DNA from: Acidobacteria bacterium Mor1
GTDB lineage: Bacteria; Acidobacteriota; Polarisedimenticolia; Polarisedimenticolales; Polarisedimenticolaceae
Assembly (NCBI GenBank): GCA_001664505.1
Contig: CP011806.1
Location: 2,361,149 to 2,391,136, forward strand
DNA length: 29,988 nucleotides
Direction of reading: 5' to 3'
Part shown: in pieces, positions 1,118 to 17,983 of the stretch
Numbering within the stretch: position 1 is the first letter of the stretch
Layout: every line of letters begins with the position of its first letter
Translations under genes and position numbers: made by a program
The notes under the pieces: model-generated
Told to the model about the DNA's origin: nothing
Databases searched by the model: none
The model's input: only the letters and a program-made list of their open reading frames with translations

Positions 1118-3675
1118 TGGACCGCTGGCGGCGGGTTCAGGATCTCTTCCTCGAAGCCCTGGAGCTGGACGGGCCCGGCCGCGAGGCGTTGCTCCAGGGA
1201 GCGGCCGAGGAGGACCCGGGCCTGCGCCTTGAAGTCGAGGCGATGCTCGAGGCCAACCGGGAGAGTGGTGCGCTGGCCGTGGAGGGCCGCCTGGGCGGTC
1301 TGACCGGACACCCCCGTCTCACCGACGAAGCCGACTCCCTCGCCGACGAGGTATCGCTCGCAGCGGGAAGCACCCTCGGGCCCTACCGGGTGGTCGAACC
1401 GATCGGACGGGGCGGGATGGCCGAGGTCTACCGGGCCGAACGTGACGACGATCAGTACCGCCAAGAGGTGGCGATCAAGTTGGTCCGCCGGGGCCTCGAG
1501 TCCCGGGAGATCGTGCGCCGCTTCCGGGCGGAGCGGCAGATCCTGGCCCGGCTGGAACACCCCAACATCGCCCGGTTGACCGACGGCGGGATCCACGAGG
1601 ACGGGCGCCCGTTCCTGGTGATGGAGTTGGTCGGCGGCATGCCGATCACTGAAGTCTGCCGCGCACGGAGCTTGACCGTCGCCCAGCGGCTCGAACTGTT
1701 CCTCACGGTCTGTGAGGCGGTCGAACACGCTCACCGCAACCTGGTGGTACACCGGGACCTCAAGCCCTCGAATATCCTGGTCGACGAGCGGGGCACGGTG
1801 AAGCTGCTGGACTTCGGCATCGCCAAACTGCTTGACGGCAGCAGCCTCGGCGTCCAGGCGGCGCAGACCCGCACCGTGGTCCTGCTGATGACGCCGGAAT
1901 ATGCCAGCCCCGAGCAGGTTCGGGGCGATGCGATCACCACCGCTACCGACGTCCACGCCCTGGGCCTGCTGCTCTACGAGATGCTCAGCGACAGGCAGGC
2001 GTTCCGCACCGAAGCTCGAGACCGGGCTTCCCTCGAGCGGCTGATCTGCGACGGCGACCCCGAACGGCCCAGTCGCGCGGCACCGGCCGAGCGCCGGCGT
2101 GCGCTGCGCGGAGACCTGGACAACATCGTCGAACAGGCGCTGCGCAAGGACCCGGCACGGCGCTACGGCTCGGTGGAGCAGCTCGCCGACGACATCCGCC
2201 GCCACCTGGCGGGTCACCCGGTGCGAGCTCGGGGCAATGCTCTGGGCTACCGGCTGAGCAAGTTCGCCCGGCGCAACCGCTATGGGCTGGCTGCGGCGGG
2301 CCTGGCCGCGGTGCTCCTGGCCGGCTTTGCCCTGGCCAGCTTCTTCCAGGCTCGCGCCGTGGCCCGGGAGCGGGATCTGGCCCGGGAAGAACGGGACAAG
2401 GCCCGGCAGGTCACCGAACTGCTGGTCGATCTGTTCGACGCCGACCCTTTCGCCGCCGACGAGAAACGGATGGACGACCTGACCATCCGGCAGTTCCTCG
2501 AACGCAGCGAGAAAGATGTGCGGGAGAGCCTGGCCGGCCAACCGGAGCTGCAGGCGACGTTGATGGGTCTGCTGGGCCGGCTCTACGGAAACCTCGGCAT
2601 GTTCGACCGGGCGCGGGACCTGTCGGAACAGGCGGTGGCCGCCCGGCGGCAGGTCTATGGCCCCGACAGTCTGCGGGTCGCCGAATCGATGAACGTGCTG
2701 GCCACGGTGCTGCAACACCAGGGTGACTTCGATGCCGCCGAGGAACAGTTCCGCCGGGCGCTTTCGATCCGCGAGGCACGGCACGGCGGGGATCACCTGG
2801 AGGTTGCCGAGAGTCTGAATAACCTGTCGTCGCTGCTGTCCGCCCGGGAGCGAGCGGAGGACTTCGACGAGATCGAACGGCTGGAGCAGCGAGTGCTGGC
2901 GATGCGGCGCAAGTTGCTGGGCGAGGACCATCTGGAAGTGGCCCAGAGCTACAACAACCTGGCGGTGTTCCACTACCAACGGGCCGGCGACGGAGATCTG
3001 GAGCGGGCCGAGTCGCTCTATCGACAGGCCCTGCGCATTCGCAGCGAGCAGTTGGGCGACACCCATCCGAGCGTGGGCAACACCGCCAACAATCTGGCCT
3101 ACCTGCTCTTCGATCTGGGCAACTTCGCCGAGGCCGAGGCCTCGTTCCGCCGGGCCATCGCCGCCTGGTCCGCCTCCCTGGGCGATGACCACCCCAACGT
3201 ATCCGCCGCCCAGTACGGTCTGAGCGCGACCCTCGAGGCCCGAGGGGATCTGGAGGGCGCCGAGGCGGCGCTGCGCCGCTCCACCGAGATCGACGCCGGC
3301 ACCCTGGCGCCGGACCACATCTACGTCGCCGACGGCAAGCTGGAGCTGGGGCAGCTGCTGATTCGTAAGCAGGACTTCGCCGGCGCCCGGCCGCTGCTGG
3401 CCGGCGCTGCCGAGATCTACGCCGCCAAGGGCGCGGTGCGGGCCGAACAGCTCGGCATCACCCAGGTCGAGCTCGGTCGCTGCCTGCTGGAGCTGGGCCG
3501 CTTCGCCGAGGCGGAACAGGTCGCGCTGACGTCGTACGCGACCCTGGAACAGGCGATCGGCTCCGACGACGACCGCACCCGCAGTGCCGCCACCGGCATC
3601 GTGCGGGTCTACGAGGCATGGGGCCGTCCGGAGCGGGCCGAGCCCTGGCGGGACAAGATGCTGCATTCCGGTTGA
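1117..3675 (+). CDS. Membrane Ser/Thr protein kinase (PknB-type) with TPR sensor region
   Basis: This is an 852-residue kinase. After an 85-residue N-terminal helical segment, the kinase domain runs from about 88 to 365. It has the glycine loop IGRGGMAEVY, catalytic Lys121 in VAIK, HRD with Asp214 in VVHRDLKPSNI, DFG at 232-234, and the TPEYASPEQ activation segment end. All catalytic residues are present, so an active enzyme is expected. One transmembrane helix sits at about 389-410 (GLAAAGLAAVLLAGFALASFF). The remaining 440 residues are TPR repeats with ALSIRE and NNLA signatures typical of kinase-linked tetratricopeptide arrays, which would lie outside the membrane and bind a partner or ligand. 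The gene overlaps the sigma factor by one base. The likely substrate is that sigma factor, an inference based on linkage and on the missing acidic motif in it. The beta-helix protein gene follows 59 bp later. Confidence 0.95.
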   Translation: MDRWRRVQDLFLEALELDGPGREALLQGAAEEDPGLRLEVEAMLEANRESGALAVEGRLGGLTGHPRLTDEADSLADEVSLAAGSTLGPYRVVEPIGRGGMAEVYRAERDDDQYRQEVAIKLVRRGLESREIVRRFRAERQILARLEHPNIARLTDGGIHEDGRPFLVMELVGGMPITEVCRARSLTVAQRLELFLTVCEAVEHAHRNLVVHRDLKPSNILVDERGTVKLLDFGIAKLLDGSSLGVQAAQTRTVVLLMTPEYASPEQVRGDAITTATDVHALGLLLYEMLSDRQAFRTEARDRASLERLICDGDPERPSRAAPAERRRALRGDLDNIVEQALRKDPARRYGSVEQLADDIRRHLAGHPVRARGNALGYRLSKFARRNRYGLAAAGLAAVLLAGFALASFFQARAVARERDLAREERDKARQVTELLVDLFDADPFAADEKRMDDLTIRQFLERSEKDVRESLAGQPELQATLMGLLGRLYGNLGMFDRARDLSEQAVAARRQVYGPDSLRVAESMNVLATVLQHQGDFDAAEEQFRRALSIREARHGGDHLEVAESLNNLSSLLSARERAEDFDEIERLEQRVLAMRRKLLGEDHLEVAQSYNNLAVFHYQRAGDGDLERAESLYRQALRIRSEQLGDTHPSVGNTANNLAYLLFDLGNFAEAEASFRRAIAAWSASLGDDHPNVSAAQYGLSATLEARGDLEGAEAALRRSTEIDAGTLAPDHIYVADGKLELGQLLIRKQDFAGARPLLAGAAEIYAAKGAVRAEQLGITQVELGRCLLELGRFAEAEQVALTSYATLEQAIGSDDDRTRSAATGIVRVYEAWGRPERAEPWRDKMLHSG

Positions 3676-3734: not shown

Positions 3735-6700
3735 ATGCATAGCCCGACGAAGAACCCGAAAAACAGCGCCCTCAAGGCACTTTTCAACTTTCTCCCAGTG
3801 ATCCCGCGCCGCCCGGCCCCTGCGGCCGCCGTGCGGAGTGCCGCCTGGCTCCTGCTGCTGGCGCTTCTGCCGGCACCGGCTGTCGTGGCCCAGACCAACG
3901 TGTCCGGCACCATCAGCGTGGACACCACCTGGGACCTGGCCGGCTCCCCCTACATCGTGACCAACAACGTCTCGGTGTTCGGAACCGACGGCCCCGACGG
4001 GGTGACGACCTTGACCATCGACCCCGGTGTCGAGGTGCGCTTCAGCAACGTCAACGCCGAGCTTCGGGCCGGAAACTTCAGTAACGACGGCGCCATTGTT
4101 GCCGACGGCAACAACGGCCCGGGCGCGCCGGCGCAGATCGTGTTCACCAGCGACCAGCCCGCGCCCGCTCCCGGCGACTGGCGGCGGATCATCTTCGACG
4201 GCGCCACCGGCAGTTCGGTGTTGCGCAACGTGTTGATCGAATACGCCGGCCGCAACTCCTTCGACGGCGGCGTGGTCGATGTGAGCCATGGAAGCGGCAC
4301 GGTGACCATGGACCAGCTGACGATCCGTCAGAGCAACTTCGACGGCATTCGGGTCGCGACCGGCGCTTTCTCCCTGGCGAACTGCACCATCGAGGACGCC
4401 ACCGAGTTCAGCGTGCAGGTGGACAACAGCACGACGATCGTGGGCACGGTTTCCGACTGCAATCTCGAGAGCCTGCTCTACAACTTCGGCGCCCTCGCCG
4501 ACGTAACCTGGACGAACAACACCTTCACCAACTGGGGCGCCGCCACGTCGCGAATGGCTGCCGGCGATCTCGATGGGTTCCTCAACAACAACACCATCGC
4601 CTCGTCGGCTCCCGATGCCGCCGTGGAGCTTCTGGCCAACACCAACATCGAAGAGGACGCCACCTGGAGCACCACCGCCGGCACGATCCGGCTGCTGGGC
4701 AACATGGCCGTCCGTGGCACCGACGGCCCCGACGGGGTCACGACCTTGCGCATCGATCCCGGTGCCCGCATCGAAATGCCCAACTTCGGCACCATCACCG
4801 TGGCCAGCTTCACCGTCCCCGGTGCGCTGATCGCCGACGGGGACAACGGCCCCGGTGCCCCGGCGGAGATTCTGTTCACCAGCAGCAGCGCCACACCGGC
4901 GAGGGGCGATTGGCGCCGCATCTATCTCGACCGCATGACCGACCCCACGTCGCTTATGCGCAACGTGCGCATCGAATACGCCGGCCAGTTCGCCAACGAC
5001 GCCGGACTGCACCTGTTCAATTCCTCGGGTCCGATCGTGCTCGACGACCTGACCATCGTCGAAAGCGCCCAGTACGGCCTGCGGCTGCAGGGTGACTTCG
5101 ATCTCTCGAACTGCACGATCCGCGACCATGACCTGAGCGCCGTGAGGCTGGAGCCCCAGACCGGCATGGTCGGCACCGTGAGCGACTGCACTCTGGGCAG
5201 CGTGGAATACATCGGCCAGCAGCCGATGGTCGATTGGAGCGGAAACAACTTCGTCGACTGGGGCGCGCCGGCATCGGTCTTCGCCCCGGACGGCGTGGCC
5301 AGCCTGACCACCGGAGGAAACACCTTCTCGACGCCGAACCTCGGCGTCGATGTCCTCGCGGGCGAGGTTCCTCGCAGCGGGTCCTGGAGCCCTTCAGTTG
5401 GGCCGATCCGCATGCAGGGCGCCTTGACCGTCGCCGGCTCAGGCGACCCGACGGTGACCTTCCTGCCGGGGCTTCGCGTGGAGATGCCGGCGCTCCAGCG
5501 GATCAACGTGGGCAAGTCGATCTTCCCGCTGCAGCCGGGCACCCTGATCGCAGAGGGCACCCAGGTCGATCCGATCGTGCTGACCAGCGTCGCCGGCTCC
5601 CCGGCACCCGGTGACTGGGAAGGGGTCTTCGTCACCAACCAGGCCGGTAGTGCGACTCGCTTCCGCGACGTCGTCATCGAGTACCACGGCGAGGGCAGCT
5701 CCGATGCGGGCCTGGTGCTCTCCCCCCAATCCTTCTCGGTGCCCCTGGAGCGGGTGACCATCCGCCACGGCGCCAACGACGGCATTCGAGCCAACTTCGG
5801 TGCCCTCGACCTGCGGGACAGCCTGATCCAGGATGTCGCGGGCTACAGCGTCTGGCTGGCCGACAACAACAGCGTGGCCGGCACCGTCTCGGGCAGCACC
5901 CTGGAGAGTGTCTTCTACGACGGCATCAACCCGCTCACCAGCTGGGACGGCAACGTCTTCGACAACTGGGGAGCGACCCCGTCGCTTGTGATCAGCACGG
6001 TGGTCGAAGACTTCACGAACAACAACACCTTCATCAATCCGGTGCCCGACGCCGTGCTCGAAGTCTCCCCGACCCGCATCGAACTGGATTCGACCTGGGG
6101 GCCGGGTGCAGGCCCGATCGTGCTCCAGGGAAGCCAGTCGATCGGCGGTACCGACGGTCCCGACGGTGTGACCACCCTGACCCTGGATCCGGGTACCGAG
6201 GTGCGCCTCCCGGCCGCCTCTCAATTCTTCGTCGGCAGCACCAACGTCGGACGGCTCGTTGCCGACGGGCGCGTCGGCGACGGCACCGTGGATCCCGTGC
6301 TGATCACGAGCGCCGAGACAATGCCCGCGGCCGGCCAAACCCAGGGCGTCCAGCTCCTGGGCCTGGGGGAATTGGAACTCTACGAGACGACCATCGAGTA
6401 CGCCGATGCAGCCGTGCAGGCCTCCGGAGAGGTCACGGCCATCGACGGGCTGACCGTCCGGAACTCCAACATCGGCCTGTTCCTGACCGGCTCCGGTACG
6501 GTCACCTCGACGCTGCGGCGGATGTTCTTCGAGAGTGTCGATACCGGCGTCCGCTCCACCAACATGTTCGTGACCATCCGCGAGAGCAACCTGGTCGGCG
6601 CGACCTTCGGCGTCGAGAACACCTCGCCGGCGGCGTTCTGCGTCGACGCCTCGGAAAACTGGTGGGGCTCCGCCGACGGGCCTTCGGGTTCGGCGCCGAC

Positions 6701-7112
6701 CCAGGGCTGCGAGCTGGATGTTCCGCCTGGTGCAGGCTCGGCGCTGACCGAGGGGGTGCAGTTCGACAACTTCCTGACCGAACCGGTGGATCCTGCCGGC
6801 AGCGTCAACGTGCTGGTGGCCAACCTGCGCTTCAGCACCAACGACACCCTGATCTGGGACCCGGCTCTGGGCGCGGTGGAGTACCACATCTATCGCCAGC
6901 CGCTGTCTTCGGTGGGCGCTGCACCCTACGCGGTCTGCCGTGACGACCTGGACGGCGATCGCACCGACGAGCAGCTGATCGACCTGGAAGAGCCGCTGCT
7001 GCCGGGTGAAGGTCTGACCTACCTGGTGACCGGGGAGAACAGTTCGGGCACCGAGGGCGCCTTCGGCGATGCCACCGCGGGCCCGCGTTCGGCCCTCAAC
7101 ATCTGCCCCTGA
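3735..7112 (+). CDS. Secreted right-handed beta-helix repeat protein with C-terminal fibronectin-like domain
   Basis: This is a protein of 1125 residues. I chose the ATG at 3735 because AGGAGG lies at 3721-3726 and the N-terminus then reads as a signal peptide: basic segment, hydrophobic AWLLLLALLPAPAVVAQ, and a cleavage-like AQ/TN site. An upstream in-frame start at 3618 would put 39 extra residues before it and overlap the kinase gene. The mature protein consists of four tandem units of 235-245 residues, each with a WD/WS-type opening, a GTDGPDGVTTL-like strand, a FTS...PGDWR segment and a IEYAG/IEYHG strand, the pattern of parallel beta-helix repeats. The last 95 residues (LRFSTNDTLIWDP...YHIYR) resemble a fibronectin type III or beta-sandwich module. 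No membrane anchor or sorting tail is visible. The function is unknown; extracellular glycan binding or adhesion would fit. It may be co-transcribed with the sigma/kinase pair. Confidence 0.85.
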   Translation: MHSPTKNPKNSALKALFNFLPVIPRRPAPAAAVRSAAWLLLLALLPAPAVVAQTNVSGTISVDTTWDLAGSPYIVTNNVSVFGTDGPDGVTTLTIDPGVEVRFSNVNAELRAGNFSNDGAIVADGNNGPGAPAQIVFTSDQPAPAPGDWRRIIFDGATGSSVLRNVLIEYAGRNSFDGGVVDVSHGSGTVTMDQLTIRQSNFDGIRVATGAFSLANCTIEDATEFSVQVDNSTTIVGTVSDCNLESLLYNFGALADVTWTNNTFTNWGAATSRMAAGDLDGFLNNNTIASSAPDAAVELLANTNIEEDATWSTTAGTIRLLGNMAVRGTDGPDGVTTLRIDPGARIEMPNFGTITVASFTVPGALIADGDNGPGAPAEILFTSSSATPARGDWRRIYLDRMTDPTSLMRNVRIEYAGQFANDAGLHLFNSSGPIVLDDLTIVESAQYGLRLQGDFDLSNCTIRDHDLSAVRLEPQTGMVGTVSDCTLGSVEYIGQQPMVDWSGNNFVDWGAPASVFAPDGVASLTTGGNTFSTPNLGVDVLAGEVPRSGSWSPSVGPIRMQGALTVAGSGDPTVTFLPGLRVEMPALQRINVGKSIFPLQPGTLIAEGTQVDPIVLTSVAGSPAPGDWEGVFVTNQAGSATRFRDVVIEYHGEGSSDAGLVLSPQSFSVPLERVTIRHGANDGIRANFGALDLRDSLIQDVAGYSVWLADNNSVAGTVSGSTLESVFYDGINPLTSWDGNVFDNWGATPSLVISTVVEDFTNNNTFINPVPDAVLEVSPTRIELDSTWGPGAGPIVLQGSQSIGGTDGPDGVTTLTLDPGTEVRLPAASQFFVGSTNVGRLVADGRVGDGTVDPVLITSAETMPAAGQTQGVQLLGLGELELYETTIEYADAAVQASGEVTAIDGLTVRNSNIGLFLTGSGTVTSTLRRMFFESVDTGVRSTNMFVTIRESNLVGATFGVENTSPAAFCVDASENWWGSADGPSGSAPTQGCELDVPPGAGSALTEGVQFDNFLTEPVDPAGSVNVLVANLRFSTNDTLIWDPALGAVEYHIYRQPLSSVGAAPYAVCRDDLDGDRTDEQLIDLEEPLLPGEGLTYLVTGENSSGTEGAFGDATAGPRSALNICP
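3930..6800 (+). repeat. Four in-frame tandem repeats (about 0.7 kb each) inside the beta-helix gene
   Basis: The Trp codons that open each unit start at 3930, 4665, 5385 and 6096, giving periods of 735, 720 and 711 bases, all multiples of three. Units 1, 2 and 4 share a near-identical stretch coding GTDGPDGVTTL (near 3981, 4716 and 6147). Unit 3 has diverged there (AGSGDPTVTF). The repeats are protein-level duplications and not mobile DNA. The end of unit 4 is approximate. Confidence 0.75.
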
Positions 7113-7159
7113 CGGCAGCCACACCTCAAGCCAACACGCGTACGAAACCCGACGGGAGC

Positions 7160-7187
7160 GGGGCATCGAGCATAGACTCGGTGCCCC
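7160..7187 (+). terminator. Stem-loop between convergent genes (putative terminator)
   Basis: An 11-base-pair stem (7160-7170 with 7177-7187, GGGGCATCGAG pairing CTCGGTGCCCC, one G-U pair) encloses a 6-base loop, 48 bases after the beta-helix stop. No strong T tract follows, so intrinsic termination is only probable. Confidence 0.5.
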
Positions 7188-7206
7188 GTTCGCTGCCTTT
7201 GGCTAC

Positions 7207-7224
7207 CCGGAGCGAATGCTCCGG
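7207..7224 (-). terminator. Short stem-loop just after the DUF819 gene
   Basis: CCGGAGC (7207-7213) pairs perfectly with GCTCCGG (7218-7224) around a 4-base loop, three bases beyond the stop codon of the minus-strand gene. It could help end that transcript. There is no T tract on the minus strand. Confidence 0.35.
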
Positions 7225-7227
7225 CGA

Positions 7228-8535
7228 TCAGCCGCCGGCGATGGGGCTGGCCGCGCGCATCAGACCCGCGCAAAGCACCGCGGCATAGGTACCGAGGGCG
7301 TAGCCCAGCACCGCAAGCAGCACGCCCACCGGCGCCAGGGCCGGGTGGAACGCGGCGGCGACCACCGGGGCGCTGGCGGCGCCGCCGATGTTGGCCTTGC
7401 TCCCCACGGCAAGGAAGAAGTAGGGCGCGCGGATCAACCAACCGACCAGGAACAGAAGCGCGACGTGGAAGACCATCCAGATGCCGCCGACCAGGAATAA
7501 CCCGGGGTGCTCGACCACCGCGCGGATATCCATCTTGAGCCCGATAGTGGCAACAAGGATGAAGATGAAGACCGTGCCGACCTTCGATGCGCCGGCACCC
7601 TCGTAGTTGCGGGCCCTGGTGAAGGAGAGCACGACACCGATGGTCGTGGCCGCGACGATCAGCCAGAAGAAACCGCTGGTCAGACCGATCGCCTCGAGGA
7701 AGTGCACCTTCTGATCGGGGCTCTTGAGGCTGTCGGCGACCCCCTTGAACCAGGGGGCGATGATGTCCGCAGCCCAGTGAGAGGCGGCCACGGCACCGAA
7801 ACCGATGGCACCGATCATCATCAGGTCCACCGAGGTCGGAATCCGTGAGGTCTTCTTGGCGAAGGTCTCCATCTTGTCCCGAAGCCGGTCGATGGCCGAG
7901 GCATCCGCCTTGAAGAAGGCGTCGATCTTCTCCGCCTTGCCCACACCGAGCAACAGGAACAGCATCCAGGCTTCGGCGACGATCACGTCCACGGCGACCA
8001 TCACGCTGAAAAGCTCGTCGGTCGGTTCGTAGATCACCGCCATGGCGGCCTGGTTGGCACCACCGCCGATCCAGCTCCCGGCCACGGTAGCGAGCCCGCG
8101 CCAGACCTCGGTCGGGCCGACACCGCCGACCAGTTCCGGATTTACCAACGCCGTCAGCCAGACCGCTATCGGCCCGCCCAGCACGACACCGACGGTCCCG
8201 GTGAAGAACATGATCAGGGCTTTGGGCCCCAATCGCACGATCTCTCGTAAATCGATGCTGACCGTGAGCAACACCAGGCTCGCCGGCAGCAGATAGCGTG
8301 ACGCCACGAAGTAGGTCTGTGTCTCGTTCGGGTCGACCAGCCTGAAGAATGTGAGAAGCGACGGGGCAAAGTAGCAGAGCAGCAGCATCGGCACGAGGCC
8401 GTAGAACTTCTTGAAGATCGGATGCTCGCTCTTGGAGGTGTAGAAGATCACCCCCAGCATCACCATCAGGATGCCGAAGATGACCGCATCGTTGGTGATC
8501 ACCGGTGTGTAGGTCGCCGCCCCTGTTGCCGCCAC
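7228..8535 (-). CDS. DUF819 (YjcL-like) family integral membrane protein
   Basis: This is a 435-residue polytopic membrane protein of the DUF819 family (PF05684). Features seen are the opening ITNDAVIFGILMVMLGVIFY, YLLPASLVLLTVSIDLREI, then GTVGVVLGGPIAVWL and the family-typical VAGSWIGGGANQAAMA followed by AVDVIVAEAWMLFLLLG. A soluble loop (about 200-230, AEKIDAFFKAD) separates two membrane halves, and the second half includes GSKANIGGAASAPVVAAAFHP. The family is distantly related to sodium/solute transporters of the CPA/AT group, and its substrate is not established. The start is GTG at 8535 with GGAG six bases upstream on the minus strand. It stands alone and converges on the beta-helix gene, with hairpins in the gap between them. 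Confidence 0.88.
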   Translation of the reverse strand: MAATGAATYTPVITNDAVIFGILMVMLGVIFYTSKSEHPIFKKFYGLVPMLLLCYFAPSLLTFFRLVDPNETQTYFVASRYLLPASLVLLTVSIDLREIVRLGPKALIMFFTGTVGVVLGGPIAVWLTALVNPELVGGVGPTEVWRGLATVAGSWIGGGANQAAMAVIYEPTDELFSVMVAVDVIVAEAWMLFLLLGVGKAEKIDAFFKADASAIDRLRDKMETFAKKTSRIPTSVDLMMIGAIGFGAVAASHWAADIIAPWFKGVADSLKSPDQKVHFLEAIGLTSGFFWLIVAATTIGVVLSFTRARNYEGAGASKVGTVFIFILVATIGLKMDIRAVVEHPGLFLVGGIWMVFHVALLFLVGWLIRAPYFFLAVGSKANIGGAASAPVVAAAFHPALAPVGVLLAVLGYALGTYAAVLCAGLMRAASPIAGG

Positions 8536-9198: not shown

Positions 9199-9816
9199 AT
9201 GGCGATCATCGGCATCGCGGGGGACGGACACCCCACCGAACTCGCCCGCCGCATCGGTCAAATCGCCGAGGGCGATCCCGATGCCCGTGACTGGTTCTAC
9301 CGGCGCTACTCCCCCAGGCTGTACCGGCGAATTCGCAGCCGCTACGGGCGTGACCGGCGGCTCGATCCCGAAGAACTCCTTCACGACCTTTTCGTCTGGT
9401 GTTTTCAGGACGGCGGCTCGGTGCTGCTGGGGTTCCTCGATCGCAACTCGGCCGAACAGCAGACCGCCTACCGGCTGGAAGGCTACCTCTGGGGCCTCGT
9501 CGCCGGTCTGGTCAGCAATCGGCGCCGCCGCTTCGGCCGCGTCCCGGAGCAGGTCCCGGCCGAAGATGTGCCCCCGGCGTTCGCTGCCGACGCCGAGGAA
9601 CAGGAGTTGCGACGCGACATGCTGCGCGAACTCTCCGCCTGTCTCAAGCGGAGCGGAAGCCGCATCTATCTTTACTTCACGCTGCGCTACGTCGAAGGCC
9701 TCACGCCGCAGGAAATATCTCACGTGAGCGGCTGGCCTCGCCCCCGCGCCTACAAGCTCCGCTCGAAGCTGAACGCCGCTTTGCGCCGTTGCTCGGAGCT
9801 GCTCGGTATCGCTTGA
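9199..9816 (+). CDS. ECF-type RNA polymerase sigma factor of the CHAT operon
   Basis: This is a 205-residue sigma factor. The ATG at 9199 is chosen because GGAGG lies at 9189-9193; an in-frame TTG at 9178 would sit before that site. Region 2 contains WFYRRYSPRLYRRIRSRYG and then RRLDPEELLHDLFVWCF, where DPEE (residues 56-59) occupies the DAED position of region 2.2, so the acidic RNA-polymerase contact motif is kept. Region 4 spans about 145-198: YLYFTLRYVEGLTPQEISHV and helix GWPRPRAYKLRSKLNAALRR. It is divergent from the first sigma factor of the window and heads a tight operon: its stop overlaps the TTG start of the CHAT lipoprotein gene. Two genes further on is an anti-sigma-like membrane protein, the probable regulator. 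Confidence 0.88.
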   Translation: MAIIGIAGDGHPTELARRIGQIAEGDPDARDWFYRRYSPRLYRRIRSRYGRDRRLDPEELLHDLFVWCFQDGGSVLLGFLDRNSAEQQTAYRLEGYLWGLVAGLVSNRRRRFGRVPEQVPAEDVPPAFAADAEEQELRRDMLRELSACLKRSGSRIYLYFTLRYVEGLTPQEISHVSGWPRPRAYKLRSKLNAALRRCSELLGIA

Positions 9817-12629
9817 GACCGCTGAGGCGAACCCTGGCCGTGCTCGCGTTGATCTTGCCGGTCGGCTGCAGCCCGCCGTCGAGCCCGGATCCGGAACTAC
9901 TCGATCAAGTCCAGGTCGCGTTCAAGGGCCATGCCGAACTGGACCGAAGGGCCGGCGGCGGCTGGGCTCCCTTCTACCCCCTCTCACAACGACCGGTGGC
10001 CATCTGCCTCGATGCGCCGGCGCTGCGCGACACCAGCGGGTGGAAGTTGAGCCTCGCTCTGGGTCAATACCCGGCCGCAGAAGCTCCCCTGCATGCTCCA
10101 TCCCAACGCTTGGGCAACACGCTGTGCTTCGAGTACTCCATGCCGGACGATGGGGGCGAGGGCTGGCAGCAACTATGCCCGCTTCTCGTCGACGACTTCG
10201 ACGGAAGGCGAGCGGCCATCCCCTGCCTCGATTTTCGCTTCTCCAGTCGCGACCCTGGCTACTACGCCCAACTCGATGGCTTCAACCGGCTGATGAAGCA
10301 GTCGAACGACCTGACCACTGCCGACCTGCTGGCTCGGCTCGAATCGATGGAACGAGATGCGGAGGAGGCGGGGTTTCCGTTCCTCTCCCTGCGCTGCCGC
10401 TTGACCGCCGCCTACTTTGCCCGGCGCAGCGGCGAAATCCCGATCGACCGCATGGTTTCCGAGCTTCGCTCCGCTCGACCGGATTGGCTCGGCCGCAACC
10501 ACAGTGAGAAATGGTCCGCGGTCTATGCGTACGAACTGGCGGCATTGCTCGCCGAGGAGGGGCACGGTCTGCAGGAAGCGTGGAACGAGCTACGGCACGC
10601 CGAAGAAATGTACCGGCGAATCGGAGATCCCGACGCCCTGTCCGTGAGCATGTTGCAGGCCGATATCCTCGCCCGCGTCGGGGCGCCGGAAGAGGGAATC
10701 GTGCGGCTGGAACGGGCCCTCGAGCTCTGCGAAGGCGCCCCGTGCCGCCGCTCCCTCGTGACCGGGGCCAGCAGCACGTTGACCTGGCTCACCTTGCAGG
10801 ACCCACTGAGCACCCGCCCCCGCCTCGAGCGAGTCGCGTCGATCCAGCGGGAGGCCATCGATAGCCTGGAGAGCCAGGGAACGCCGATAGAGCTCGGGAA
10901 CGCCGCGATCAATCTCGCCTTCGTCAACGTGCGACTCGGAGGGGACCCGCGGCCGGCGCTGCTTCAGGCGGAGGCGGCCTTGAACGCGACAGGCGGCGAA
11001 GCCGGCCGATCGCTCAGGTTGCAATCATGGGCCGTCGGAGTCCGGGCCCAGCATGGACTTCAACGCGGAGAGGCGGAACGGTCCGCGGAGATCTGCCGCG
11101 ATCTTTCGCGGAGCACGGACAGCCCGCAGATCGGAGCCTGGGCGAGAAGCTGCCTGGCGCGGGCCGAGCGGGCCAGGGGCGACATCGTGGCCGCCCGGGA
11201 CGCCATTGAAGCCGCCCGGGTGCTCCACAGGTTCGGAGTGGACGAGGGGCCTCGGGAAGACAGTCTGCTCGGCCCCAGCGCGAGATCGCAGGACTCCTTC
11301 CTGGCCGCGCTGCTGGCGCTGGATGACTCGGCACCCGACCAGGCGTGGACCATTCTCGAGGAGATCGATCGCAGCGCCGGCTCGGAACTCTGTCTGCCGA
11401 CCTCGTCCGAGGAGCGCTCGGCCTGGAACACCTTGCTGCTCGATATCGCCGCCCTCGAAGGACCGGCATCGAGAGAAGTGCGCCGGGCACGGTCGGAGGT
11501 CCGCCGCAACCTGATGCAGGAAGCACGGGAGCTGCTGCGCAGCCAAGAGCATTGCGCCGGCGGTGACCGAGAGACCGCCGTCCCCCTCGTCGATTTCCGC
11601 GCCTTCGCGGCGGAAGGTGAGATCGTGCTCCTACGGCGCCACCCCGACGGCACGGTCGCCGTCGATCGGCGCGCCGAGATGGAAATCGAGAGCCTCGGCG
11701 AGCTGCTGCAAAGAGTCAACGCTCCGTCGACAGGACACGAAGCCTGGCTCGAAGCGGCGACCTCGCTGGCCGAGGTGCTGGCGCCGACTGCGCACGACCT
11801 CGATGCCGAAACCAGCTTCGCTGCCCACGGACTGCTGCAGAGGGTGCCATGGAGCGCGCTTCCGATCCCGAGCCTCGACCCTCCCTATCTGGGCCTCCAG
11901 ACCAGCGTTGTGCACTACCCGACCGGTGCTCCCGCGAACCATCCGCGGAAAATCGCGCCTCGAGGGCGGCCTCTCTTCGTCGTCGACCCGACGGAGAACC
12001 TCCCCGGAAGCAAGGGCCTGGCGGCGTCCTACCGCAGGCTCTTTCCCGAATCGGCCATCTTGCAGGGAGAAGAGGCCACGAGCGCCTCGTTGATCCGCGA
12101 ACTCCCTCGAGCTTCTTCGCTCCACATCGACGCCCACGGCACCTTTGAACCGGCATTCCCGGAACTGTCCGCCGTGATCTTGGCCGACGGGGCCATCCCT
12201 GCCGCTGCCTGGGCCGGCGAAATGCCGCCGATGCTCCTGGCCAACCTCAGTACCTGCGGAGGAGGGCGCTGGCCGGTCACCGCCGATTCGGGACGGTTCG
12301 GCCTGGCGGGCACTCTGGCACGCCGTGGTGCGCAATGGGTCATCGCATCCCGCGCCGACCTGCCGAACCGGCTCGCGGTCGAGTTCAACGGCGAGCTCTA
12401 CCGGGGTCTCCGCAACGGAATGACCGTGCCCCAGGCCTACCGGGGCGCGCTCACCGGAGTTTCCCGCAGCTACTCTCCGCAACACTGGGCCGCATTGATG
12501 CTGCTGCGGAACCCCTCGGAAAAAAATATCGGCCAAAGTGCCTTCGTTCGGACTCTTGATTCACGGGAGCCTCCGTCCGAAAGCGGGGGGCGAGCCTCGC
12601 GAGTGCTGCCTGAGGGGGACGTTCGATGA
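9813..12629 (+). CDS. Putative lipoprotein with TPR-like helices and a C-terminal CHAT (caspase-like) peptidase domain
   Basis: This is a protein of about 938 residues if it starts at the TTG at 9813, which overlaps the sigma stop (TTGA). That start gives the N-terminus RPLRRTLAVLALILPVGCS, a basic/hydrophobic signal ending in a lipobox-like VGC (Cys19), with an unusual Pro at -3. A GTG at 9840 is the alternative but leaves a very short signal. Residues of about 150-650 are helical and TPR-like (AWNELRHAEEMYRRIGDPDA, EEGIVRLERALELCEG). The C-terminal third is a CHAT domain: HIDAHGTF with His775 and NLSTCGGG with Cys815 form the His-Cys dyad of clan CD peptidases, followed by FGLAGTLARRGAQWVIAS and WAALMLLRNP. 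The dyad is intact, so protease activity is likely. The substrate is unknown. The gene overlaps the next one by ATGA. Confidence 0.85.
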   Translation: MRPLRRTLAVLALILPVGCSPPSSPDPELLDQVQVAFKGHAELDRRAGGGWAPFYPLSQRPVAICLDAPALRDTSGWKLSLALGQYPAAEAPLHAPSQRLGNTLCFEYSMPDDGGEGWQQLCPLLVDDFDGRRAAIPCLDFRFSSRDPGYYAQLDGFNRLMKQSNDLTTADLLARLESMERDAEEAGFPFLSLRCRLTAAYFARRSGEIPIDRMVSELRSARPDWLGRNHSEKWSAVYAYELAALLAEEGHGLQEAWNELRHAEEMYRRIGDPDALSVSMLQADILARVGAPEEGIVRLERALELCEGAPCRRSLVTGASSTLTWLTLQDPLSTRPRLERVASIQREAIDSLESQGTPIELGNAAINLAFVNVRLGGDPRPALLQAEAALNATGGEAGRSLRLQSWAVGVRAQHGLQRGEAERSAEICRDLSRSTDSPQIGAWARSCLARAERARGDIVAARDAIEAARVLHRFGVDEGPREDSLLGPSARSQDSFLAALLALDDSAPDQAWTILEEIDRSAGSELCLPTSSEERSAWNTLLLDIAALEGPASREVRRARSEVRRNLMQEARELLRSQEHCAGGDRETAVPLVDFRAFAAEGEIVLLRRHPDGTVAVDRRAEMEIESLGELLQRVNAPSTGHEAWLEAATSLAEVLAPTAHDLDAETSFAAHGLLQRVPWSALPIPSLDPPYLGLQTSVVHYPTGAPANHPRKIAPRGRPLFVVDPTENLPGSKGLAASYRRLFPESAILQGEEATSASLIRELPRASSLHIDAHGTFEPAFPELSAVILADGAIPAAAWAGEMPPMLLANLSTCGGGRWPVTADSGRFGLAGTLARRGAQWVIASRADLPNRLAVEFNGELYRGLRNGMTVPQAYRGALTGVSRSYSPQHWAALMLLRNPSEKNIGQSAFVRTLDSREPPSESGGRASRVLPEGDVR

Positions 12630-13453
12630 ACCGCCGGGAACGGGAGGAATTGCTTTGGGAGCTGGCCGATACCGTGCCCGATCGCCAAACCAGGCCGATT
12701 CCGCCCGAGATCCTGCGTGCCTTCTGTCGCGGAGCCTTGAGCGAACGCGAACGAACGCGGATCGAGTGGATCCTCTGCCGGAGTTCGGCCGCGCGAGCCG
12801 ATCTGTTTCAGGCTCTGGGCAAGCCCATCGGGGTGCCGCCGGCCTGGGTCGGAAAAGCGCTGCGCGGCGAGCCGGTCCAACGCGCCAGCCCGCCCCGTCC
12901 TCTGCGGCGCTGGTTGCCCATGGCGGCGGCGGCGGCTCTCGCCCTGCTGGCTTTGATCTGGCTGCGTCCGGTGCCGGATCTCGGCGCACCAGGCGAAGCG
13001 TCGAGTTTCAGGCCGGCAACAACCTACGAAGTGCGCATCCAGGGCGCTTCGGAGATTCGCTCCGAAACGACAGAGTCCATGGCGTACCCGGAGACGCGCC
13101 TGCGCGTCTGGGTCGAGCCGGCCGACCGCTCCGGAGGGGCGGTGCGGTTTGCGCTGTATCGAGAGGAAAGCGGCGCGCTTCGCAGAGTCCAGCGCTCGGA
13201 ACTGCTCGAGGAACGGATCGAGCGAGGCGCAGCCCTTTTCGAAGCGAGAGCGGAGACTCTGCTCGGTTCGCATCCGGGCCGCAAGTCTCTGTTCGTCGTC
13301 GTCGCCGAACCGGGAGCAACGCTTCCGGAAAAGGTGGCGCTCGACGGACTCCCTCCTGTGTCGCGTCTCGAGACCGAGACCGGCGGCGCGGTCTACCCAC
13401 GGTCGATTCGGATCGTGGCGGGGCCCCAGAACCACGAACTTGAGGAGGAATGA
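12626..13453 (+). CDS. Single-pass membrane protein resembling an anti-sigma factor
   Basis: This is a 275-residue protein whose ATG overlaps the CHAT stop by four bases. The N-terminal 60 residues resemble the cytoplasmic anti-sigma domain of the zinc-binding (ZAS) type: ILRAFCRGALSERERTRIE lines up with the usual YLDGELS...VEAHL pattern. The zinc ligands are absent, with I49, S53 and A56 where His, Cys and Cys are expected. One membrane helix lies at about 95-113 (WLPMAAAAALALLALIWL). The remaining 160 residues form a beta-rich domain beyond the membrane (TYEVRIQGASEIRSETTE, TRLRVWVEPADRSGGAVRFAL). Position, topology and linkage to an ECF sigma factor make an anti-sigma role likely. The assignment rests on architecture and not on a clear family match. 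The outer domain would be accessible to the CHAT lipoprotein or the subtilase-like protein of the same operon. Confidence 0.65.
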   Translation: MNRREREELLWELADTVPDRQTRPIPPEILRAFCRGALSERERTRIEWILCRSSAARADLFQALGKPIGVPPAWVGKALRGEPVQRASPPRPLRRWLPMAAAAALALLALIWLRPVPDLGAPGEASSFRPATTYEVRIQGASEIRSETTESMAYPETRLRVWVEPADRSGGAVRFALYREESGALRRVQRSELLEERIERGAALFEARAETLLGSHPGRKSLFVVVAEPGATLPEKVALDGLPPVSRLETETGGAVYPRSIRIVAGPQNHELEEE

Positions 13454-13456
13454 TCG

Positions 13457-15004
13457 ATGAGAACCAGACGTCAAACCACGCTGCGGCCGGCGGCCGGCCT
13501 GCGGATCGCGACGCTATTGCTGGCAGCGTCCATGTTCGGTCAGGCAGCCCACGCCCTTGAATGGGCCCGCTTCCGCGCCGGATGCTCGGGCAGCGGGTCG
13601 ACGATCGAATTCAGCTGTGGCAACTTCGGCACCTACCATCTCGGCACGATCGTGCCTCCCCAGGGCTGCACCGCGATCAGGAGCGGCAACGAGGTGCCCA
13701 AGACCTACGCCCCGGGCTTCGACATGGACGCCGCCCCCTTCCCCACGATGCCGAACTTCGGCCCCCCCTCCCAGAAGGAGAACTCCTCCGGCCCGTGGCT
13801 TGCGGTCCTGGACTTCTCCGAGGGATTTCACGGCTGGAGCACGGCGATCGCCGCCCTCCAGACGGCCCTCGGCGGAATCACGACGACCCTCGTTCCGCTG
13901 GAAGACGCCGTCGACCTGGGCAATGAGGTAACCGACGTTCACCTGCTGGCCGGGCTCTGCAGCATCCTGGACAGCGTCGACCACGATGGAGCTCAGCTCT
14001 ACGGTGTGACCATGAGTCTCGGGCGTCTGCTCGGAGCCCCCCCGCCGCCCGGTACGGAGAGCCTGCCCCAGGAGATCGCGGGGGTGATCCACCAGATCCG
14101 AGGCACAGGAGCCACGGTAACGGCGTCCGCCGGCAATCATGACTCGATGTTGTTCCCCGCGGCGCTCCACGAGGTCATCTCCGTCGGCATGGTCGATCTG
14201 CACTCGCTCTTCCTTACCGGAATGTCCGAGCCGACCTGGGAAACCCCTGCGACGGCGGAAGCGCTGCTCCCCGGAAGCCAACTGTGCCTGGACCAGACCT
14301 TCGCTGCTCCGTCCGGGTCCTCGTACTCCACCGCGCTTCTGGCCGGTTGGTTCGCCTGGATGCGTCAACACATCCCGGCCGACCCTCACGACTACACCGG
14401 GTGGCGCGCCAAGCCCTCCGAAACCCAAAGCTGCTGGGTCCTGACCAACGATGCGGGCTTGACCTTCGATCAGTGCAACACCGGCGTAGACCAGATGTTC
14501 CAGGACTACCTGTCCGGCCTGCCGGTGAGCTGCTGGCCCTCCCTGCCCCAACCGACTTCGGTCACGGTCCACAAGGAGACCGGCGTCGATCCTCCCGAGA
14601 TTCCCAGCTTCGACGAATGGAGCTCCGAGTCGCCCTCCCCGACCCCCGGCGGCGATCCCTGCGTCCCCTGCGGCGGAACGCTTGAAACCTCGGGAGGAGG
14701 CGGTTCCGACACCCTGACGATCGATATGAGCCAGACCGATCCACTTCCGGAAGTCGACATCCACGGCGTCTACATCAATGTGCCCGGAGGGTTCTTCACG
14801 GTGCCCTTGCCCAGCCAGACTCTGATCGACATAGGGAACGCTGATCTCGATCAACTCGTGCTGACCGGTTACGGATTCACCAACCCGATCAACTTCCAGC
14901 CCTCCCTCTGGTTCGAGATGGGCCCGGCAAACACCGACTGCTCGCAAGCGGGCACCTGCTTCTGGACGTCGACACCTATTCTGGTCACCAACAACGGCAA
15001 CTGA
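13457..15004 (+). CDS. Secreted subtilase-like (S8 fold) protein
   Basis: This is a 515-residue protein with a signal peptide (basic MRTRRQTTLR, hydrophobic IATLLLAASMFGQAAHA). The ATG at 13457 is three bases after the previous stop, with AGGAGG at 13443-13448. The middle of the protein follows the subtilisin order: VLDFSEG with Asp119, EVTDVHLLAGL with His162 in the place of the HGTHVAG helix, VTMSLG, VTASAGNHD with Asn227 (oxyanion site), and SGSSYSTALLAGW with Ser289 in the position of GTSMATPHVAG. Asp, Asn and Ser therefore fit. The catalytic His is doubtful because the HGT motif is absent and the spacing differs. After a Pro/Ser-rich linker (about 385-410) comes a beta-rich C-terminal region with several Cys residues (DCSQAGTCFW). 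It could be a working peptidase or an inactive binding protein. It is the last gene of the sigma/CHAT operon. Confidence 0.7.
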   Translation: MRTRRQTTLRPAAGLRIATLLLAASMFGQAAHALEWARFRAGCSGSGSTIEFSCGNFGTYHLGTIVPPQGCTAIRSGNEVPKTYAPGFDMDAAPFPTMPNFGPPSQKENSSGPWLAVLDFSEGFHGWSTAIAALQTALGGITTTLVPLEDAVDLGNEVTDVHLLAGLCSILDSVDHDGAQLYGVTMSLGRLLGAPPPPGTESLPQEIAGVIHQIRGTGATVTASAGNHDSMLFPAALHEVISVGMVDLHSLFLTGMSEPTWETPATAEALLPGSQLCLDQTFAAPSGSSYSTALLAGWFAWMRQHIPADPHDYTGWRAKPSETQSCWVLTNDAGLTFDQCNTGVDQMFQDYLSGLPVSCWPSLPQPTSVTVHKETGVDPPEIPSFDEWSSESPSPTPGGDPCVPCGGTLETSGGGGSDTLTIDMSQTDPLPEVDIHGVYINVPGGFFTVPLPSQTLIDIGNADLDQLVLTGYGFTNPINFQPSLWFEMGPANTDCSQAGTCFWTSTPILVTNNGN

Positions 15005-15202
15005 CCTCATCGCTTCCACCGGCAACCGCGGCCGCCCTTCTCGGGTGGCCGCGCCCCGGGCGCTACCCTGCGCTTCCCATTCAATCGGCTTCTCTCGGCC
15101 AAACCACCTGGATCGCGACTCTTCACTGGTTGCAACCAATGCCGCTTCGATCGGCCCCTCGATCGAGAGCCGAGCCTTGGAAAACAACAGGAAGGAGCGA
15201 TC
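15005..15202 (+). other. Intergenic region before the G8 beta-helix gene
   Basis: This gap holds a hairpin right after the subtilase-like gene, the perfect 12-base palindrome TGGTTGCAACCA at 15127-15138, and a shorter palindrome CTCGATCGAG near 15156. The palindromes may be operator sites. The ribosome binding site GGAG for the next gene is at 15194-15197. I see no convincing promoter hexamers. Confidence 0.4.
15027..15053 (+). terminator. Strong GC hairpin after the sigma/CHAT operon
   Basis: An 11-base-pair stem with one G-U pair (15027-15037 with 15043-15053) and a 5-base loop TTCTC starts 23 bases after the subtilase-like stop. It lacks a T tract, so it may be a partial terminator or a pause/processing site. 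Confidence 0.45.
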
Positions 15203-17983
15203 ATGGAATCTAGCCACGGCAAACTGAGCGCGGCGGGCCGCATCTCGCTACGAAGATTCGCGGCGCTTTGCGCCATTGTCCTTGCGACAACGGCCGGTAC
15301 CGCAATCTGGGCCGTCCCGGCCCCTCAACTCCAGAACGTTTGCAACATCGGCGGAAGCACCGGAGCGGATGTGGTGATTCCCGACGACGGCACGGTCTAT
15401 ACAATTGACGACGACGCCATCTGCGGACTGATCACCATTCACGGCGTGCTCAAGTGCGCCGCCGGCGTCGACGCTGTAGTGAACGCCGACGGCATCAAGA
15501 TCGACGGGCCCAATGCCCGCCTCGAGTGCGGCACCCGGACGAATCGCTTCGACGGCAAGATCATCTTCGACATCCGCAACAACCGGGCGTTTCCCGGACA
15601 CGCGGGAAACGAGCGCAGCATCCTTGTCATGAACGGCGGCACCCTTGCTCTGCATGGCGAAACCGACAAGGCCGGAATGACCCGGCTGATCTCTGATGCG
15701 GCCGCGGGCTCGACTTCGTTGACCCTCGAAGATACCGCGGGCTGGGAGAGCGGTGATCGCATTATCCTGACCACGACCAGCGCCTACCCGGACCAGAACG
15801 AGTCGCTAGTACTGACCGATAACTGCCCCGGAGGGATCTGCGGACTGAGCGCCGGGCTGCAGCACTTCCACTACGGCGATGACGTTCAGGACTACCCGGG
15901 TGCCGGCGAAGGCGGCAGCAAGCTGACCGTCGACATGCGCGCGTACGCAGCCAACGTCAAACGCAACATCACGATTCGCGGCGCCAACGACAACCTGTGG
16001 CAGGTCTCGTCCAAAGGCGCGCACATCATGATCATGGGCAGCGGCAAGGCCTACCTGGACGCCATCGAGCTCAACCGAATGGGCCAGCTATCGATCCTGG
16101 GGAGGTATCCGATTCACTGGCACCACACCGGCGACATCGCCGGGCAGTACGTGCGCAACTCGTCCATCCGCAACTCGGGCAGCCGCTGCATCGCCCTACA
16201 CAACTCACAGAACGGCGACGTCTCGAACAACCTCTGCTACAACGTGCAGGGTCACGCGCTGTTCCTCGAAAACGGCAACGAGGTCGGCAACAAGATCGAC
16301 GGCAACCTGATCGTCGGCACCAAGGAACCGCTACCGGGAACCGAGTTGCTGCAATCGGACGTCGACATCCAGCTCTCGCGCTGGCGGGGACCGTCCGGCC
16401 TCTGGATCACGAACCCCGACAACGAGATCACCAACAACGTGGTGGTCGATGCAGGGTCCGGCTACTGGATGGCCTTCATCCACAACCTCTATTGCTACGA
16501 CGACCCTGCGAATCCCAGCGGAACGGCGAACCCCGACACCGGAAAACACTGCGACTACAAAGAACGCACCCAGACTGCATCTTCCAACGTGCACCCCGTG
16601 CGCGCCCGTGTTGGAGAGTTCTCGAACAACGTCGCCATCGCCACTCGAGTCGGCGCCACCTGCGATGGCGCTGCGGACGGAGACCAGATCGGCACCGGCA
16701 ACGAGTTCAACCGGGACCTGATCACCACCGGCTACTCACCCCGGGACGAGAACGGCAACCTGACCCGGGAGACCTTCGACGGCATCCACGCCTATAAGTC
16801 CGGCCGCACAGGTATCTACTATCGCGGCATCGCAGGCAGCGCCCTGATTCAGAACGCGGTAGTCGTCGAGGCGCCTATCGGCTGGTTCGGTACCGAGCAA
16901 CAGGACTACTTCGACTCGTTGTTCGTCGGCGTCAGCCAGAACTTCAGCGATGGATTCGCCTACCACGAGGACCCCTCGATACCGGTGCAGGACAAGGCCG
17001 GGGCGGACCGGTTGATGATGGGTATCGGCCTCTACGACGGAGCGAATCACTTCAGGAACGTCAGCTTCGACTACCCGGCCGGTCCGATGTACTTCACCAA
17101 CGGCCAGAGCGAGATCACGCCCACGCCGATCAGCATCTTCGGGCGCGGGCACTTCGGCAACCATGTGTTTGAAGATCTCGACTTCAGCTGGCAGGAACCC
17201 TACCGCCGGATCAATCTCGACGCCCAGCTGGCCAAGGTCAACTGGAAGGACACCGAAGGGAGCGAGTCCAACCATGACGTTGACGGCTCCCTGTTCGGCG
17301 TAGCCGGTTTCGTCCGTCCCGACATTCCGTTCAACGACGAGAGCTCGGGGTGTACCCGGGAGGTGTTTGCAGGGGGAAGCTCATCGGTGTTGCGCTGTTC
17401 GAATACCACGACGACGGTGAAGGTCCAGATGGCACACCAGAGCGTCAATCCCGCCCTCAACGATGATTTCCAGGAGTTCGTTGCGGTGCGGCTCGACAGC
17501 AATGAACAGGTGACCAACCCTGGGGTAGGCACACTGTTCGACAAATTCCAGATGGATATTCCCGCTTCCGGGCCGGTCAACTACCGGATCAAGGACCTCA
17601 ACTTCAAGTCCGGGAGCTACGGCAACGACAATCACGATGGAAACCTGATCTGGATCGAGACCTTCAACCAGTCCGATTGGACCGGGTTGATCGTGATCGA
17701 CGGCGCGACGGCAACCAACCTGGCCTCAGGCTGTGCCACGCCCGCGGACTACGAGCTGGCCATGTGGCCGGGGGAGAGCGGCAGCATCCACAAGGCAAAT
17801 AGCGTGCAGGAGATCCGCAACTTCTCCGCCGCGGGCTTTGCCGGGGCGTACTACGGAGCGCCCAACGGATCTCTGGTGATCAAACTCAACGGCCAGAACC
17901 TCCTGGGCCCGGCCTCGATGAACCCGGCCTGGTTCCACACCGGTGGAGCCAAGTTCGATCTGGTTTGCAACGCCGCGCCCTGA
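15203..17983 (+). CDS. Secreted G8-domain / parallel beta-helix protein, CEMIP/TMEM2-like
   Basis: This is a 926-residue exported protein. The signal peptide comprises a basic stretch ending RRFAALCAIVLATTAGTAIWA. A G8 domain follows at about 57-185: VVIPDDGTVYTID, GLITIHGVLKC, ADGIKIDGPNARLECGT, then GGTLALHGE and TSLTLEDTAGWESGDRIILT. This is the same strand order as in animal CEMIP, TMEM2 and PKHD1 proteins. Next comes a right-handed beta-helix (about 250-500) containing LGRYPIHWHHTGD (residues 299-311), closely matching the GRYPIHFH signature of the CEMIP/TMEM2 group, and NSSIRNSGSRCIALHNSQN. The rest is beta-rich. Animal members bind or cut hyaluronan; a carbohydrate-binding or -cleaving role outside the cell is a reasonable inference here. 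The start is set by GGAG at 15194-15197. It follows the CHAT operon on the same strand after a hairpin. Confidence 0.85.
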   Translation: MESSHGKLSAAGRISLRRFAALCAIVLATTAGTAIWAVPAPQLQNVCNIGGSTGADVVIPDDGTVYTIDDDAICGLITIHGVLKCAAGVDAVVNADGIKIDGPNARLECGTRTNRFDGKIIFDIRNNRAFPGHAGNERSILVMNGGTLALHGETDKAGMTRLISDAAAGSTSLTLEDTAGWESGDRIILTTTSAYPDQNESLVLTDNCPGGICGLSAGLQHFHYGDDVQDYPGAGEGGSKLTVDMRAYAANVKRNITIRGANDNLWQVSSKGAHIMIMGSGKAYLDAIELNRMGQLSILGRYPIHWHHTGDIAGQYVRNSSIRNSGSRCIALHNSQNGDVSNNLCYNVQGHALFLENGNEVGNKIDGNLIVGTKEPLPGTELLQSDVDIQLSRWRGPSGLWITNPDNEITNNVVVDAGSGYWMAFIHNLYCYDDPANPSGTANPDTGKHCDYKERTQTASSNVHPVRARVGEFSNNVAIATRVGATCDGAADGDQIGTGNEFNRDLITTGYSPRDENGNLTRETFDGIHAYKSGRTGIYYRGIAGSALIQNAVVVEAPIGWFGTEQQDYFDSLFVGVSQNFSDGFAYHEDPSIPVQDKAGADRLMMGIGLYDGANHFRNVSFDYPAGPMYFTNGQSEITPTPISIFGRGHFGNHVFEDLDFSWQEPYRRINLDAQLAKVNWKDTEGSESNHDVDGSLFGVAGFVRPDIPFNDESSGCTREVFAGGSSSVLRCSNTTTTVKVQMAHQSVNPALNDDFQEFVAVRLDSNEQVTNPGVGTLFDKFQMDIPASGPVNYRIKDLNFKSGSYGNDNHDGNLIWIETFNQSDWTGLIVIDGATATNLASGCATPADYELAMWPGESGSIHKANSVQEIRNFSAAGFAGAYYGAPNGSLVIKLNGQNLLGPASMNPAWFHTGGAKFDLVCNAAP

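Follow-up and report, generated by a model that had tools for sequence, protein, structure and literature searches.

A CHAT protease encoded with a sigma factor and an anti-sigma-like membrane protein in Acidobacteriota: a candidate transmembrane switch

Why would a bacterium encode two protease-like proteins in one operon with a sigma factor? The locus that raises this question lies in a stretch of 29,988 nucleotides from Acidobacteria bacterium Mor1, which we call the window. Four genes follow each other on the forward strand. The first (9199..9816) encodes an ECF-type sigma factor of 205 amino acids with the sigma2 and sigma4 regions, and a GGAGG ribosome-binding site lies ahead of its ATG at 9199. 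The second (9813..12629) starts with TTG and encodes an exported TPR-like/CHAT protein of 938 amino acids, a predicted lipoprotein. The third (12626..13453) encodes a one-pass membrane protein of 275 amino acids and the fourth (13457..15004) an exported subtilase-like (S8-like) protein of 515 amino acids with a signal peptide. The sigma stop codon and the CHAT start codon share the TTGA at 9813-9816 (a 4-nt overlap), the CHAT and membrane-protein genes overlap by the 4 nt at 12626-12629, and a 3-nt gap separates the membrane-protein gene from the S8-like gene. All of these coordinates, the order and the spacing are exactly as given in a preliminary description of this DNA. PADLOC matched none of the four proteins, hence a defence assignment is unsupported. 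A search for a common promoter motif upstream of four paralogous sigma genes found none (best score 27, against 27-28 for shuffled sequences). Elsewhere in the window (551-3675), a second sigma gene (551-1117) overlaps a protein-kinase-like gene (1117-3675). This sigma-kinase pair is unrelated to the operon.

The four-gene order is not due to chance. The preliminary description had staked its proposal on the order being conserved in related genomes, and a six-frame search finds it complete in 12 divergent loci: four of them in the host genome, one in a different family of its order and seven in other Acidobacteriota. Gene calling gives the full order at all four host-genome sites and in one genome of the other family. 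Averaged over pairs of the 12 loci, identity is 41% for the sigma factor, 33% for CHAT, 29% for the membrane protein and 30% for the S8-like protein. Thus the operon copies are not recent. Loci were sampled from a scan of public genomes and from 396 genomes of the phylum; because the phylum scan scored only two candidates per genome, the locus counts are an undercount. The host genome, a single contig of 6.0 Mb, contains 21 CHAT genes. Three of the others are full-length relatives of the window CHAT (31-35% identity), and behind each lies a gene related to that of the membrane protein.

Three further loci (L049, L053 and L057) are truncated by contig ends and are consistent with the order, to which there are two exceptions. 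In L086 the CHAT protein is full-length with an intact dyad, and the sigma and membrane genes were not found. L089 (7066-9600, minus strand) is an orphan window-class CHAT without a sigma, membrane or S8 gene, and it has lost both catalytic residues. The distances of sigma factor, CHAT and membrane protein co-vary across loci (r 0.43-0.50), whereas those of CHAT and the S8-like protein do not (r 0.11). No set of flanking genes is common to the loci. A family of large exported proteins is encoded beside the operon, on opposite sides, in two different bacterial families (L030:2750-5848 and L032:13642-16845, both on the minus strand). At one host-genome site (L029, C1:4476000-4495000) two sigma-CHAT operons stand divergently, back to back: the window-class operon on the minus strand, the other on the plus strand with its sigma gene at 11450-12046 and its CHAT gene at 13105-15588.

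The sigma protein is a small homologue with only regions 2 and 4, which by sequence places it among the ECF (sigma70 group 4) factors. It matches TIGR02937 with E 1.8e-8 and 34 bits (residues 35-204 of a 212-aa reading), under the 42.9-bit cut-off. Nine of ten relatives match the same model (E 1e-8 to 5e-5), all with scores under that cut-off. The L052 sigma factor reaches only E 0.0092 with TIGR02937 and E 2e-5 with other sigma models. Identity between the window sigma factor and those of four other such operons is 38-45%, and a sequence search for relatives of solved structure returned none.

The CHAT protein matches PF12770 far above the cut-off of 24 bits (E 7e-22, 78.6 bits) and carries a His/Cys dyad, the two features that mark a predicted CHAT peptidase. 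The dyad is present and intact at His775/Cys815, precisely the residues named before. It is kept in 16 of 17 CHATs of the window family (the exception is L089) and in all 60 checked CHATs of sigma operons. Export is predicted from a hydrophobic N-terminal signal and a lipobox-like LPVGC. In a tree of CHAT domains the window class is a single clade with full support, set off by a long branch; the solved relatives found by sequence are designed proteins only.

What does the membrane protein do? It matches no curated family. We divide it into an anti-sigma-like head (residues ~1-80), a membrane helix (~97-115) and an outer Ig-like beta-sandwich (131-266). Its AlphaFold model has helices at the N-terminus, then the membrane helix at 99-112 and the outer sandwich at 134-263, the last modelled with confidence. 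A fold search that covered the outer part matched only Ig folds (Z 9.4), a common fold that implies no function. Aligned by hhalign with the zf-HC2 anti-sigma heads of other CHAT operons, the head matches over 43 columns (probability 81.7, E 1.1e-5), a likeness to class I anti-sigma heads in line with the anti-sigma-like cytoplasmic head of the preliminary description. The best PDB match to the sequence of this stretch is weak (E 0.11): 3hug_B, a membrane protein, which we take to be RslA, an anti-sigma factor of M. tuberculosis, bound to SigL. The Hx3Cx2C zinc motif (ZAS) is absent from the window protein and its aligned paralogues; in class I anti-sigma domains (ASDI) this motif is optional (PMC7406223). 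Like ASDI proteins, the window protein has a short helical N-terminal head ahead of the membrane helix (PMC7406223). Unlike the ASDI families, its head has no curated match, and the likeness comes from the profile comparison with zf-HC2 heads alone. ASDI heads have a three-helix bundle, a linker and a fourth helix; the window model has five helices before the membrane helix (3-15, 27-34, 40-52, 54-64 and 73-79).

The location of the CHAT protein follows the topology of its anti-sigma-like partner. If the partner has a membrane helix, CHAT is exported; if it has none, CHAT is cytosolic. This holds for 53 of 54 pairs. In the window class and other host-genome operons, a membrane helix in the partner goes with a signal peptide or lipobox in CHAT, which puts CHAT and the outer domain on the same side of the membrane, where the preliminary description had placed them. 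In the widespread version, CHAT lacks a signal peptide and the partner lacks a helix. Of the two sets of pairs examined, the first was concordant throughout (36 of 36, with three start codons corrected) and the second contained 17 concordant pairs and one misfit. The three corrected loci (L034, L038 and L039) first seemed to be exceptions because their start codons had been called too late. Earlier starts give clear lipoprotein signals in L034 and L039, and in L038 a hydrophobic lipobox stretch with no clear start codon. The misfit, L131, encodes a membrane-anchored protein of 430 amino acids followed by a 725-aa CHAT without a signal peptide, possibly a split fusion. Export and topology were called by hydropathy rather than by a trained predictor, and the exported calls for L038, L042 and L088 are weak. 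On the CHAT-domain tree two changes of location suffice, so the 53 concordant pairs amount to about two independent co-switches. Hence the match is suggestive and falls short of proof.

In some loci the two proteins are a single molecule. Directly downstream of its sigma gene, L123 encodes one chain of 1152 amino acids (3911-7369, minus strand) with a zf-HC2 domain over the cut-off (E 2e-8), a membrane helix near residue 79, TPRs and a CHAT domain at 847-1126. A similar fusion in L121 (4289-7729, minus strand), whose frame overlaps the sigma gene, has a Cys-rich head that Pfam does not call. The predicted arrangement of both chains, head inside and CHAT outside, is that of the split genes of the window.

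The window operon is one branch of phylum-wide sigma/anti-sigma/CHAT operons, a breadth that the preliminary description had missed. Sixteen of the 21 host-genome CHAT genes lie near a sigma gene on the same strand (within 7 kb upstream to 2.5 kb downstream), whereas random placement of the 101 sigma hits yields a mean of 1.5 such neighbours and a maximum of 9 in 5000 trials. Several host-genome CHAT operons, among them L034, L037 and L043, have zf-HC2 heads over the Pfam cut-off. Distant CHAT loci sampled from across the phylum hold a sigma factor, CHAT, a protein that is either anti-sigma-like or CarboxypepD_reg-like and, in many cases, a full S8. The widespread cytosolic version (L092, L097, L103, L105 and L117) combines a sigma factor, a CarboxypepD_reg-like protein, CHAT and a full S8. 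Between the sigma and CHAT genes of L094, L098 and L110, no gene for an anti-sigma-like protein was seen. Some class D operons (L039, L040, L042 and L044) share an exported protein family of 515-544 amino acids, with no Pfam match and beta-propeller-like by eye, whose genes recur next to the anti-sigma-like and CHAT genes or in between them.

To explain these operons, we propose that CHAT acts on the membrane protein and thereby frees the sigma factor, so that the operon is a transmembrane switch. We give this reading a probability of roughly 55%. The cytoplasmic head of the membrane protein would hold the sigma factor of its operon in an inactive state. The N-terminal and TPR-like regions of the CHAT lipoprotein, seated on the outer side of the membrane, would sense a signal, and the His775/Cys815 dyad would then work on the outer beta-sandwich. 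CHAT probably cuts or bends the membrane-bound lock open. The head would be destabilised or unbound and the sigma factor freed, probably with the help of general intramembrane and cytosolic proteases. Across loci, the target of CHAT would be the C-terminal domain of its anti-sigma-like partner, be that domain inside or outside the membrane. The S8-like protein would be an exported partner or output.

Gene order, dyad conservation, the side-of-membrane match and the fusions are the observations behind this proposal; sigma binding, cleavage, the signal and the release we infer. The fusions directly behind a sigma gene argue for it, as do the match of the head to zf-HC2 anti-sigma heads and the co-varying distances of the three proteins. 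A CHAT without any partner gene (L089) has also lost both dyad residues. There is a precedent as well: in type III-E CRISPR systems Csx29, a TPR-CHAT protein, cleaves Csx30 and so relieves the inhibition of a sigma factor (PMC10028731). Against the switch stand the zinc-less head without a curated match, the sigma score under its cut-off, the small number of independent co-switches and the misfits L131, L094, L098, L110 and L086.

Could the other protease do the cutting? The preliminary description had allowed for the subtilase as the cutter, and it would be a site-1 protease on the outer domain, with CHAT a mere scaffold or sensor. The S8-like protein is exported to the right side, matches Peptidase_S8 (PF00082) over the cut-off (E 1.9e-6, 27.9 bits against 21.8) and retains its putative triad in 11 of 13 members. 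In the window the putative catalytic residues are Asp119, His125, Asn227 and Ser289, and a beta-rich C-terminal domain follows a DPCVPC linker. A low-confidence model (mean pLDDT 60), too poor for triad geometry, matches subtilisins (E 5.6e-6); by sequence, the solved relatives are weak S8 matches only. However, in L052 (13694-15283, plus strand) and L053 (2923-4536, plus strand) the catalytic His, Asn and Ser are gone (HG to RS, GN to GD, GSS to GSP). These two would be pseudo-proteases, and their CHAT dyads are still intact. The L052 operon is otherwise complete and that of L053, cut by the contig end, is consistent with it. Since the dyad is intact in 60 of 60 CHATs, the conserved enzyme of the two is CHAT rather than the subtilase. 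The Asp-His spacing is also unusual, six residues in the window class against ~40-90 where related operons encode canonical S8s. Finally, S8 is exported even in the widespread version, whose CHAT and anti-sigma-like proteins stay in the cytosol. The subtilase is thus a highly improbable cutter.

It is nearly as hard to believe that CHAT and S8 form their own protease cascade, one processing the other, with an uncut membrane protein that senses the product by a conformational change. Some anti-sigma factors are indeed driven by conformational change (PMC8999054), and S8 and CHAT genes also pair up without a sigma gene on their strand: in L045 (2296-7367, plus strand) a canonical S8 gene immediately precedes one for a CHAT lipoprotein, and no such sigma gene lies close by. 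Yet such a cascade would have to do without S8 catalysis in L052 and L053, and the CHAT and S8 distances do not co-vary. Unlikely too, though less so, is a reading in which both exported proteases are cargo. The sigma/anti-sigma pair would sense alone, and CHAT and the S8-like protein would be effectors of self-digestion, predation, defence or turnover. Genes beside ECF sigma factors are often targets of those sigma factors, every class exports its S8-like protein, and some class D operons encode the additional exported family. Cargo does not, however, explain why an anti-sigma head and CHAT share one chain in L123 and L121, why CHAT location rather than S8 location tracks the anti-sigma-like topology, why the window-class CHAT gene lies between the sigma and anti-sigma genes, or why cytosolic CHATs exist.

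How does the proposed CHAT switch compare with known systems? Like Craspase (Cas7-11, Csx29, Csx30 and CASP-sigma), the operon joins genes for a CHAT protease and an ECF-like sigma factor to one for a protein that inhibits the latter, here a predicted inhibitor (PMC10028731). Unlike in Craspase, CHAT is outside the cytoplasm, the predicted inhibitor spans the membrane and there is no Cas7-11. No RAMP gene (PF03787) was found in the whole host genome and no CRISPR repeat array in the window, in line with the earlier suggestion that the switch is not linked to CRISPR. The one-pass anti-sigma layout, with an outer domain as the likely target of a site-1 protease, resembles RseA/DegS and RsiW, in which regulated intramembrane proteolysis releases a membrane anti-sigma factor. 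In contrast to these, the role of site-1 protease would fall to a CHAT cysteine protease of caspase fold from the same operon, not to a trypsin-like DegS or PrsW.

The gene context also resembles that of ECF54. As summarised in a review, its conserved neighbours are subtilase, CHAT and 'carboxypeptidase' genes, proteolytic control has been proposed, and it is described as lacking an anti-sigma factor (Casas-Pastor 2021, cited in PMC8999054). CHAT and subtilase genes likewise neighbour the sigma gene in all 12 complete loci, that of the window included, a likeness of gene context, and the cytosolic version with its CarboxypepD_reg-like protein matches the review's account (PMC8999054). Unlike ECF54 as summarised there, most loci here have an anti-sigma-like head (zf-HC2 or zinc-less), and the window branch spans the membrane, with an exported CHAT lipoprotein and a partner with a membrane helix. 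Hence a CHAT protein that relieves sigma inhibition (Craspase, PMC10028731) and, as the review outlines it, the sigma/CHAT/subtilase context (ECF54, PMC8999054) are already known. New are a variant that spans the membrane, a partner that resembles an anti-sigma factor, the match between partner topology and CHAT location, and the fusions of head to CHAT; we found no paper on any of them in the open-licence PMC literature.

Taken across the phylum, the operons may form a CRISPR-independent class of CHAT protease-gated sigma/anti-sigma switches in Acidobacteriota with cytosolic, membrane-spanning and single-chain forms, in which the window CHAT would be the dedicated site-1 protease of a co-encoded anti-sigma factor. 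We put this forward tentatively, at slightly less than even odds. If it is true, Craspase would be a special case of a more general principle, and the ECF54-type context, described in the review's summary as without an anti-sigma factor, would gain an anti-sigma partner. Anti-sigma factors would have a new kind of site-1 protease. Many uncharacterised CHAT proteins, 21 in the host genome alone, would acquire a function. Caspase-like proteases would then be a general bacterial route from signal to gene expression, beyond CRISPR accessories or death effectors, and signals from outside the cell could turn genes on without any CRISPR system.
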